Below, piece by piece: positions 37,078 through 53,393 of a stretch of DNA of 64,000 nucleotides (position 1 is its first letter; each line of letters opens with the position of its first letter). Source of the DNA: Prochlorococcus marinus str. MIT 0918 (GTDB taxonomy: Bacteria; Cyanobacteriota; Cyanobacteriia; PCC-6307; Cyanobiaceae); the NCBI RefSeq assembly GCF_027359415.1, contig NZ_CP114780.1:124001-188000 (forward strand). The letters run 5' to 3'. Made by a program: the position numbers and the translations under genes. Under the pieces are notes generated by a model, which searched no databases, was not told where the DNA came from, and saw nothing but the letters and a program-made list of their open reading frames with translations.

Positions 37078-37150
37078 TAGCCCCAAGGGGATTCGAACCC
37101 CTGTCGCCTCCGTGAAAGGGAGGTGTCCTAGGCCTCTAGACGATGGGGCC
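37078..37150 (-). tRNA. tRNA-Glu (TTC anticodon)
   Basis: A 73-nt tRNA gene on the minus strand with all stems. The acceptor arms are GGCCCCA and TGGGGCT, with a G:U pair at 1-72 and discriminator A. The D arm includes GTCTAGAGGCCTAGGAC, the anticodon loop is CTTTCAC with anticodon TTC, and the T arm is GGGGTTCGAATCCCC. CCA is not encoded. Besides translation, Glu-tRNA is the precursor of 5-aminolevulinate, so it feeds chlorophyll synthesis. A CRP-type palindrome lies just upstream, between this gene and the sasA stop. Confidence 0.97.
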
Positions 37151-37159
37151 TTGCCGGTG

Positions 37160-37165
37160 ATCATA
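37160..37165 (-). promoter_or_regulatory. Likely -10 element of tRNA-Glu
   Basis: On the minus strand TATGAT lies 10 bp upstream of the mature 5' end, which puts the expected start of transcription about 3 nt before the tRNA. A clear -35 hexamer is missing; the matching place reads ATGTGA and falls inside the palindrome at 37168-37191. The call is by spacing and match only. Confidence 0.5.
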
Positions 37166-37167
37166 CA

Positions 37168-37191
37168 CAAATGTGATCACTATCACATTTG
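37168..37191. promoter_or_regulatory. CRP-type palindrome upstream of tRNA-Glu
   Basis: Two perfect 10-bp arms, CAAATGTGAT and ATCACATTTG, are separated by CACT. The core is TGTGA-N6-TCACA, the consensus of CRP-family regulators, and it differs from the ideal E. coli CRP site in only the central bases. Its centre would lie near -26.5 relative to the predicted tRNA-Glu start, over the -35/spacer region. A binding protein there would most likely repress, though the poor -35 could also point to activation. It could instead be a sasA terminator, but no T-run follows the stem. Confidence 0.55.
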
Positions 37192-37201
37192 AAAGCTAAG
37201 T

Positions 37202-38341
37202 TTAAGACTGCTCCTGCGTCAAGACCTCAAGGGACTTGTTTTGTTTATCCCAAACCGGAACTGTGAAATAAAAACAGGCTCCTTTGTTGGGTTCAGAGAC
37301 TACCCATATCTTTCCACCATGGACTTCTACTATTCTTCTGCAGACAGATAGTCCTATTCCAAAGCCAGAAGTTTTGTCAGAAGTTTGAGGTAATCGAACA
37401 CGATCTAGAAATATTCTTTGTTGTTCTTCCTTGGGGATTCCAGGACCATTGTCACAAATGCTTACCTGAACCCATTGATTAGTTCTGTGGAGCATAGTTA
37501 TTTCTATGGAATCTCCTTTAACTGAAAACTTAAGAGCATTTTCAATTAAATTTAATAAGACTTGTCTGATCCTCTTGTGATCTACAAATACAGCTGGTAG
37601 ATCCGAAGGTATATCTGTATTAATTCCAATTCCTCTACTTAACCAAAATTTCTCTAATTCAAGAATTACTTCTGCAGAAATATTTGCAAGGTTTGATTGT
37701 TTAGGTGTGCATAAAGCTTCCCATCTGGTTGAACCAACTTCAAGGAGGTCTTTTGAAAGTGATTCAATTTCCTCTAAACGTCTTTTTATAACCTCTTGCA
37801 ATTTACTTAAATCAATCTGCCCAAGTTGTTGGCTTTGAATAGCTAACTTTGCTGCAGAAAGAGGTGTCCTCAATTCATGAGCGACCATCCTAAGTAGTCT
37901 TTCCTGAGCTTCAATACGGTTCGTGAGGGTTTCGTTTTCTTGTTTTAAGACCAGATTTTCATCTTGTAGATGTAATTCTTGTTTAGTTCTATTGAATTCA
38001 ATTTCTGTTTTTTTGAGATTTAAGTCAAGACCATTTTTAAAGAATTCTTCTTCCCATCTTGGGAGCCAATTCTGAATTTGTTGAAAAATTCTGGTACCTG
38101 CAAAAACCTGTTTAGGAAGTGGATTAATTTTTATTAGTGCTGGTATTGCTACAAGTCTATGAAATTCAAGCAATTCAGGTTCTTGTTTTGGGTCCGAGAA
38201 TTGAAGAGTTACTTCAAATCCAGAAGCCTCTGACTTGAGAAAGTTTATTAGAGATCTTAAATCAGCTCTTGATAACTGTTGCTTACTTGCAACGAGAAGA
38301 AGTGTGAGCTTTTTTAGTTCAGTAGCTGTTTGTTTGATCAC
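37202..38341 (-). CDS. sasA: Circadian clock histidine kinase SasA
   Basis: A 379-residue sensor kinase with the SasA layout. Residues 10-95 form a KaiB-like thioredoxin-fold domain ([17 protein letters not shown] and [18 protein letters not shown]) that binds KaiC. A coiled coil (about 105-150) follows, then the HisKA domain with His155 in [17 protein letters not shown]. The HATPase domain has [10 protein letters not shown] (N box), DNGPGIP (G1) and [18 protein letters not shown] (G2). It relays KaiC state to the response regulator RpaA. No kai genes are in this window. The start codon reads ATG at 38341. Confidence 0.96.
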
Positions 38342-38827
38342 AGCTTAGAACAATTGAAGTAGAGAATAGTTTATACAGCATAGTCGATATAGTGCTTTAT
38401 GAAGAGATTTATGATCACTTTGTTCTGTTATATTTAATAATATTAATGATTAAAGCCTTTTCTTAAGGCTTTAATCATTAATATTAGGCTTTATTTTTGC
38501 AAACAAGTTTGATGTTAATAATGTATGTATATTGTTGTTAAAAGTAAATATAAAATCAAATCAAAATATATTTTACTCTCAGTTTAGGTTATATATATAT
38601 TCATTTATTCCTTTAAAATATTATTTTTTTTAAATGGTTTTTTTTCTAATAGGGTCTAGAGGATATAACTCATAGAAAAACAATTATTTTATCTTTAGTT
38701 AAAAGTGATTTATATTGCTTTTAAAGGATAATTGAATTTTTAAGAAGATAGACTATTATAATTATGTTTAATTTGAAGCTTACTGGACTCTGTGTTTAAT
38801 TGCTTTACTCACTTGAGAAAAATCACT
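38342..38827. other. Divergent AT-rich spacer of about 490 bp
   Basis: This spacer separates the 5' ends of sasA (minus) and a secreted-protein gene (plus). I see no protein-like ORF and no tRNA. It contains a perfect 22-bp inverted repeat (38438-38486). Because no gene is transcribed into the repeat from either side, the spacer may encode a small RNA, possibly on the plus strand from about 38345 to the hairpin. Confidence 0.5.
38438..38486. repeat. Perfect 22-bp inverted repeat with 5-nt loop
   Basis: The left arm spans 38438-38459 and the right arm 38465-38486, with loop TTCTT. The inner part is AAAGCCTT / AAGGCTTT and the outer part is AT-rich (TAATATTAATG). All 22 pairs match. On the plus strand a T-rich stretch (TTTATTTTT) follows 4 nt after the stem, so it could terminate a plus-strand RNA. 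Its position between two divergent genes is unexpected for a terminator. Confidence 0.9.
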
Positions 38828-50819: not shown

Positions 50820-53393
50820 TTAAACACTTGCAGTAGCAAGCTCATTTTTGTTTTGACCTTTTTTAAGTAACTTAACAATGACTTTTTTATTTTCATCAAT
50901 ATCGACTTCAGCTTCATCGCCATCTTTAATTCTTCCAGATAAAAATTCTTCTGCAAGACTATCTTCCAAAAGTCTCATTACAGCTCTTCTCAGAGGCCTA
51001 GCACCATATGATGGGTTGTATCCTTCTTCTACCAACCTTTCTTTAAAAGATTCTGATACATTTAAACAAATTCCTTTGCTTTGAATTCTAGAGAATACTT
51101 CTTTTAACATTATTTCTGCGATATCTTTAACTTCATTTCTAGTAAGTTGTCTAAATACTATTATTTCATCTAATCTATTTAGAAATTCTGGCCTAAAGTA
51201 TTGTTTTAGCTCTTCATTTACAAGGGATTTAATTCTATTATATTGGCTTTCTTCTGCACTATCCCCTTCTAGTTCAAACCCCAATCCTCCACCGCCTTTT
51301 TCAATAACTTTAGAGCCTATATTCGAGGTCATTATTATAAGTGTATTTTTAAAATCAACAGTTCTTCCTTTTGAATCTGTCAGTCTACCTTCTTCTAATA
51401 ATTGTAGAAGAAGGTTAAATACATCTGGATGAGCTTTTTCAATCTCATCAAATAAAACAACAGTGTATGGCCTTCTCCTAACAGCTTCTGTAAGTTGACC
51501 ACCTTCATTGAACCCTACATATCCAGGGGGGGATCCTATTAACTTACTTACAGTATGTCTTTCCATAAATTCAGACATATCTAAACGAATCATTGCTTCT
51601 TCACTGCCAAAGAAATATGCTGCAAGTGCTTTTGTTAGTTCTGTTTTTCCTACTCCAGTAGGACCTGAAAAAATAAAGCTTGCTATAGGTCTATTTGGAT
51701 TTTTAAGGCCAACTCTTGCTCTTCTTATTGCTTTGGAAACTGATTTAACGGCTTCATCTTGACCAATCAATCTTTGATGAAGAGTATCTTCCATATTTAA
51801 CAGTTTTACTGATTCACTTTCTGTAAGTTTTTGTACAGGTACACCAGTCCATGATGCAACTATATGAGCAATATCTTCTTCATTTACTAATGGCATGTTT
51901 TGATTGTTATCATCAATATCTTTTTCTATTGTTTGATTTTTATCTTTATCTACATTTAAATTATTTATTTGAGCTTTGTTTGTAGTTGGCTGTTGCTTTG
52001 CATTATCTAAAATGGATCTAATTTGATTTCTTAAATCAACTTCCTTTTCTCTTAGCTCACCTGCTTGTGTGAAATTTTGCTCTCTTACAGCTTCTTCTTT
52101 TTCTTTTTGTACTTTTCTTAATTCCTTATCAACTTGCTTTGCTTCTGGAGGTAGCTTCGAGTTTAAAAGTCTAACTCTGCTTCCTGCTTCATCTATTAAA
52201 TCTATAGCTTTGTCAGGTAAGAATCGATCTGAAATATATCTATCACCTAAGTTCGCTGCGGCATCTAATGCTTCATCAGTAATTTTTAATCTGTGATGTT
52301 GTTCATATCGTTCTCTAAGTCCACGAAGTATTTCTACAGTATCTTCTATAGAGGGTTCACCAATCATTACTGGTTGAAACCTTCTTTCTAAGGCAGCATC
52401 TCTTTCTATATGTTTACGATATTCATCTAAAGTTGTGGCTCCAATGCATTGGAGTTCACCTCTGGCTAAAGCAGGTTTGAGTATATTTGCAGCATCAATT
52501 GCTCCCTCTGCTGCACCAGCTCCAATTAAGGTATGTACTTCATCTATAACAAGAATAACGTTTCCAGCTGATTTTATTTCTTCCATAATTTTTTTTAGTC
52601 TTTCTTCAAATTCACCTCTGTATTTTGTTCCTGCAACCAATAAACCAATATCAAGAGTTAATACTCTTTTCTCTTCAAGTATATCTGGGGTGTCTCCTTG
52701 TTGAATTCTTTGAGCTAGACCTTCTGCAATAGCAGTTTTGCCTACGCCTGGTTCACCTATTAATACAGGATTGTTTTTAGTTCTCCTTCCTAATATTTGG
52801 ATGACCCTGTCTATTTCATCATGACGTCCAACTACTGGATCAAGTTTAGATTCACTTGCGAGTTTAGTTAGGTTTGTTCCAAATTCATCAAGGGTTGCTG
52901 TTTTTAAGGAACCTTTAGTGGAGCCACCACCACCACCACCACCTGTCGATACATCTGCTGTCTCACCAAGCATGCGAATTACTTGAGTCCTTACTTTTGT
53001 TAGGTCAACACCAAGATTTTCTAAGACTCTTGCGGCTACGCCTTCTCCTTCACGAATTAGGCCAAGTAAGAGATGTTCTGTCCCTATATAATTGTGTCCT
53101 AATTGCCTTGCTTCTTCTAAAGAAAGTTCAAGAACTCTTTTTGCTCTAGGAGTAAATGGAATTTCTACAGCTACAAAACCTGAACCCCGGCCAATAATTT
53201 TTTCAACTTCTACTCTTGAATCTTTAAGGTTTACACCCATGGATTTTAAAACTTTTGCAGCAACACCAGTTCCTTCTCCAATAAGGCCAAGAAGGATTTG
53301 TTCAGTGCCTACAAAATTATGACCAAGTCTTCTGGCCTCTTCTTGGGCCAACATGATCACTTTGATGGCTTTTTCGGTAAACCTTTCGAACAT
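50820..53393 (-). CDS. clpC: Clp protease ATPase subunit ClpC
   Basis: An 857-residue HSP100 chaperone that unfolds proteins for the ClpP/ClpR protease. Two Clp_N repeats cover 1-145, followed by a glycine-rich linker (seven Gly at about 151-157). AAA-1 has Walker A GEPGVGKT at 213-220 and [19 protein letters not shown]-type middle region lies near 430-465, and AAA-2 has [20 protein letters not shown]. The ClpP-contact loop appears as part of the C-terminal domain. Length and order are those of cyanobacterial ClpC, an essential protein. It heads a four-gene minus-strand cluster. Confidence 0.97.

Follow-up and report, generated by a model that had tools for sequence, protein, structure and literature searches.

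The tRNA-Glu gene in the window (the whole 64-kb stretch of DNA analysed) probably carries three linked elements (our rough probability, 0.6): a promoter embedded in the upstream sasA gene, a hairpin in the pre-tRNA leader, and an overlapping dyad at the predicted start of the tRNA-Glu transcript (Table 1). The sasA-type gene and tRNA-Glu lie on the same (minus) strand, and between the end of sasA at 37202 and tRNA-Glu a first-pass annotation had noted a CRP-type palindrome. This observation was confirmed: the arms and the enclosed CACT are found exactly at 37168-37191, with a core of TGTGA-N6-TCACA bordered by AAA/TTT flanks.

In the window, this core is the only TGTGA-N6-TCACA with zero mismatches, and shuffled sequences yield 0.05 per 64 kb. 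Generic 10-bp inverted repeats with loops of 3 to 8 nt are common enough that about 1 is expected per 64 kb, and the palindrome by itself is therefore weak evidence. The weight rests instead on its place and its conservation, and conservation is the real test. Among 11 readable tRNA-Glu loci of the genus, the dyad was perfect in 4, had one mismatch in 5 and two mismatches in 1, and was broken in 1. The palindrome sought upstream of tRNA-Glu in relatives is thus largely kept within the genus (10/11 loci with at most two mismatches). In a second family genome (G158), the dyad at tRNA-Glu was partial. Within the window genome, 30 tRNA leaders were read (of 39 tRNA matches), and only that of tRNA-Glu contained a perfect TGTGA-N6-TCACA. 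A genome scan for the longer form TGTGATN4ATCACA returned one other perfect site (G000:C1:1121006-1121021; L171), within a fabF-like coding sequence; we rejected it as a regulatory site, as the encoded protein sequence TTCDAHHIT accounts for the motif there.

Table 1. Features at the tRNA-Glu locus (window coordinates)
Feature	Position	Strand	Remarks
tRNA-Glu (UUC; TTC)	37078-37150	-	Sole genomic hit when this tRNA was used as a DNA query
Linker CGGCAA, 6 nt	37151-37156	-	Conserved 3′ arm to mature tRNA; family linker count
Leader hairpin 3′ arm TGATCAC	37157-37163	-	GATCAC kept in 11/11 genus loci
TATGAT box	37160-37165	-	Genus-specific; overlaps hairpin 3′ arm; possible secondary -10
Palindrome	37168-37191	.	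Arms CAAATGTGAT / ATCACATTTG enclosing CACT, exact in sequence
TGTGA-N6-TCACA dyad (palindrome core)	37172-37187	.	Second half-site, +11 to +15, spacing-conserved in many genera
Leader hairpin 5′ arm GTGATCA	37174-37180	-	RNAfold of leader plus tRNA; predicted for RNAs that begin at 37189 or further downstream
Predicted transcription start +1, G of GTGAT	37186	-	Placed by -10 spacing; coincides with 5′ limit of conserved stem
-10 element TAGCTT, 18-nt spacer	37193-37198	-	Aligns with family TA(A/G)(C/T)TT
sasA-type sensor histidine kinase gene	37202-38341	-	ORF; best NCBIfam match PRK09303 histidine kinase, 525 bits
-35 element TTGACG of tRNA-Glu promoter	37217-37222	-	In last sasA codons; family-wide parse

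The comparison across genomes points to a conserved tRNA-Glu promoter, TTGACG-N18-TAGCTT, in the 3′ end of sasA (37222-37193), with a predicted start near 37186. A match to tRNA-Glu and its leader was found in 91/99 relatives; the upstream sequences compared came from those relatives and from additional family genomes. TTGAC-N18(19)-TANNNT was parsed upstream of tRNA-Glu in 115/117 family loci, and TTGACA-N17/18-TANNNT was present in 9/9 class outgroups. The parse demanded TTGAC, the spacer and TANNNT, so the -10 pattern was built in; what is informative, therefore, is that it succeeded in nearly every locus, that the spacer was almost always 18 nt, and that the -10 element took the form TA(A/G)(C/T)TT. 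This family promoter overlaps the end of sasA, and TTGACG is also found at loci whose sasA stops before it. Among the same 30 tRNA leaders of the window genome, tRNA-Glu alone had TTGAC-N18-TANNNT. With a start near 37186, the palindrome would lie at the transcript start and not over the -35; its earlier placement over a -35/spacer region was not supported, because the conserved promoter is further upstream.

The best-supported element at this spot is one that the first-pass annotation overlooked. Comparison of leaders across the family shows a predicted stem, coevolving in its two halves, upstream of the RNase P site of pre-tRNA-Glu. In the proposed structure, RNA positions +1 to +6 (GUGAUC in most relatives) would pair with the hexamer that ends six nt before the mature tRNA. 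These hexamers formed a mean of 5.05 of 6 pairs, with at least 5/6 in 80% (genus-weighted), in a count that, like the dyad counts, took in only loci with GTG near +1 (82/115). A later pair table used a hand-set anchor for genera g86 and g1 (7 nt, or GATCAC itself); the count of 5.05 of 6 was made without this adjustment. The linker to the tRNA was exactly 6 nt in 25/30 genera, the leader and the tRNA folded independently in 27/30, and the distance between the paired hexamers ranged from 8 to 23 nt across genera.

Pair-by-pair covariation at stem positions 4 to 6, with one sequence per genus, was modest (matched by 73/5000 shuffles), because the inner pairs slip out of register, and an alignment-free chimera test was used instead. 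Across 30 genera, native leaders had a mean minimum free energy of about -9.7, compared to -6.7 for permuted leaders, and 0 permutations fell below -8.1; swapping the 5′ and 3′ leader halves between genera thus cost about 3 kcal/mol. The mean fold z score was -2.1 for 106 distinct leaders, versus -0.8 and -0.9 for the tRNA leaders of two genomes, these controls being of a fixed 40-nt length. Within the genus, the chimera test detected no extra coevolution of the two stem halves, and the window genome's own leader fold was unexceptional (z of -0.67). For an RNA that starts at 37190 or earlier, or that reads through from sasA, RNAfold predicted that the palindrome itself folds in place of the leader hairpin. 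At the Rfam gathering score, the tRNA itself alone passed and nothing matched over the leader.

The hairpin most likely folds the distal leader on itself, which would leave RNase P a single-stranded proximal leader of constant length, and it may also shield the 5′ end of the transcript. Since RNase P cleavage is impeded when the leader is structured near the cut site (PMC10731613), a role in tRNA-Glu maturation is the function that we favor. The stem-loops in the 5′ leaders of Escherichia coli pre-tRNAs are similar in that structure lies upstream of the RNase P cleavage site, and one located 2 nt away slowed cleavage ~10-fold (PMC10731613); the tRNA-Glu leader hairpin differs in being family-wide and coevolving and in keeping, in most genera, a distance of exactly 6 nt to the tRNA.

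A dyad with fixed spacing overlaps this stem. Across the family it takes the form TGTRM-N6-KYACA, centered near +7.5, and its conservation is evident from the alignment: information at +11 to +15 was 0.28 to 0.73 bit, and at +16 to +26 it was mostly <0.1. A KYACW-like pentamer, a motif worded after the columns were inspected, occurred at +11 in 13.7/30 genera and at any other offset in no more than 2. A complementarity scan that was not worded from the columns also peaked at +11 (2.42 of 5, versus 0.6 to 1.8 elsewhere). Conservation of the 5′ half-site is in part a product of data selection, because only the loci with GTG near +1 entered the counts. The CRP-superfamily-like dyad is present here, its place is kept in relatives, and the spacing of its second half-site is fixed across many genera. 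Its location over the start is a repressor position, and a dimer bound near +7.5 would block initiation; both protein binding and repression at the dyad are predictions. Within the genus, the predicted hairpin and the dyad overlap enough to yield the near-perfect E. coli-like palindrome. Genus g17, which we take to be high-light-type Prochlorococcus, kept the promoter and lost both hairpin and dyad, and neither element is therefore essential everywhere. Among the g17 loci, L111, L115, L122, and others have a TTGACG-N18-TAATTT promoter and a short leader that lacks both hairpin and dyad.

We considered whether the conserved letters might instead reflect a second promoter or the end of the neighboring transcript. 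The TATGAT box recorded by the first-pass annotation is indeed present, 9 nt before tRNA-Glu, and is kept in 11/11 genus loci, and TATGCT, TATACT, or TATAAT occurs near the same place in some g17 loci. If TATGAT were a real -10 element, the palindrome would cover the -35/spacer region of this promoter (P2). However, the box is not kept in most other genera and is not the conserved promoter, its -35 would be ATGTGA (3 of 6), TTGACG-N18-TA(A/G)(C/T)TT is nearly universal, and the conserved GATCAC is accounted for by the hairpin; we regard P2 as improbable. It is harder still to credit the palindrome with ending or protecting the 3′ end of sasA mRNA. The stem does lie in the gap separating sasA from tRNA-Glu, two genes of the same strand, and read-through from sasA would form a 10-bp stem. 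A U-run, as expected of an intrinsic terminator of sasA, was sought after the stem and was not found, the minus-strand sequence that follows the palindrome being TGTATGATC; moreover, the stem of most relatives is a different one, set by its distance to the tRNA and beginning at the predicted start of the tRNA transcript.

The two other alternatives treat the palindrome as a binding site for a CRP-superfamily protein. Control of tRNA-Glu by cAMP-CRP, the earlier suggestion, draws on the exact TGTGA-N6-TCACA core and AAA/TTT flanks, but it was contradicted by the gene content of the window genome and is very improbable. The recognition helix of CRP presents Arg180, Glu181, and Arg185, and this is the basis of the helix comparison. 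A PF00325 search of the window genome found two proteins, NtcA (STRVTITR) and a 197-aa CRP-like protein (STRVTSTR), and thus STRVTxTR helices in both and no CRP with an RExxxR (SRETxSR-type) helix; a search with the adenylate cyclase domain PF00211 likewise gave no match. With neither component found, cAMP-CRP is ruled out as the reader in this genome. A cAMP-CRP system does occur elsewhere in the genus: congeners G010 (L414, 3609-4292) and G009 (L415, 978-1715) encode a CRP with an LSRETTSR helix together with a cyclase domain that matches PF00211. Perfect TGTGA-N6-TCACA sites number 5 in G009 and 10 in G010, yet the dyad at tRNA-Glu is broken in G010 despite its CRP system (this is one genome, as the tRNA-Glu of G009 was not found). 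In addition, the predicted position of +7.5 is not an activator position. The site resembles CRP sites of E. coli and of cyanobacteria (SyCRP1 type; PMC2633013) in its core and AT-rich flanks; it differs in that no cognate CRP or cyclase was found, in its predicted position downstream of +1, and in its tie to a leader hairpin. Among the proteins encoded, the likeliest candidate reader of the dyad is of the NtcA type, judging from sequence: ntcA is present (TIGR03697, 361 bits versus a cut-off of 245), NtcA and the 197-aa protein are the only CRP-type helix-turn-helix proteins found in the genome, and the second half-site has fixed spacing in many genera. Some promoters are repressed by NtcA bound over the start or downstream of the -35, and the ChIP sites of NtcA in Anabaena include GTG-N8-TAC (PMC3898017). 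The dyad is like these NtcA sites in its CRP-family form, its TGT/ACA outer bases, and a position as in NtcA-repressed promoters, in a genome that encodes NtcA; it is unlike them in its putative status and in having a tRNA gene as target, and GTA-N8-TAC itself was not found, as the window has GTG-N8-CAC, which departs from it at two positions, and the sites of other genera are GTG-N8-TAC or GTG-N8-CAC. Our literature search returned no paper joining NtcA with tRNA-Glu in cyanobacteria. It is possible, although on balance doubtful, that the palindrome serves mainly as a DNA operator, through which an NtcA-type protein of the CRP/FNR superfamily represses tRNA-Glu from the start, with the RNA hairpin secondary and the start-site operator doubling as its 5′ arm. 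Such a DNA site leaves the distal GATCAC arm and the variable distance between the hexamers unexplained, since a range of 8 to 23 nt is more than one DNA-binding dimer would be expected to accommodate.

The combined reading of promoter, leader hairpin, and dyad bears on a transcript with two uses, as glutamyl-tRNA is drawn on by translation and also by the step that opens chlorophyll and heme synthesis. With a conserved leader hairpin held 6 nt from the tRNA and a possible start-point operator, picocyanobacteria would have a place at which to regulate this shared pool. If repression by an NtcA-type regulator is true, nitrogen/carbon status (2-oxoglutarate) would be tied to the supply of glutamyl-tRNA for translation and for chlorophyll/heme synthesis. 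CRP-like sites have been reported in 13/17 cyanobacterial genomes without a CRP orthologue, their reader not being known, and the tRNA-Glu palindrome is a concrete case of these unexplained sites (PMC2633013).

The searches were also extended to further sequences. A scan of named genomes gave chance matches along with Prochlorococcus/Synechococcus loci, many of them from genomes already sampled. The promoter-plus-TGTGA pattern was present in 20 viral contigs, and in 0/20 did tRNA-Glu follow. The same dyad was not found upstream of the window genome's own CRP-like gene. At that locus (L161), a 15-bp inverted repeat (CTTGCTATTGAGAAT ... ATTCTCAATAGCAAG) lies upstream of the gene for the 197-aa protein, which starts at 428, and a ferritin-like ORF is located nearby on the opposite strand. 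In the window, two further 10-bp perfect inverted repeats were observed at 38449-38475 and 51388-51414 (ATTAAAGCCTTTTCTTAAGGCTTTAAT and CCTTCTTCTAATAATTGTAGAAGAAGG), and that at 38449-38475 has a terminator-like look.
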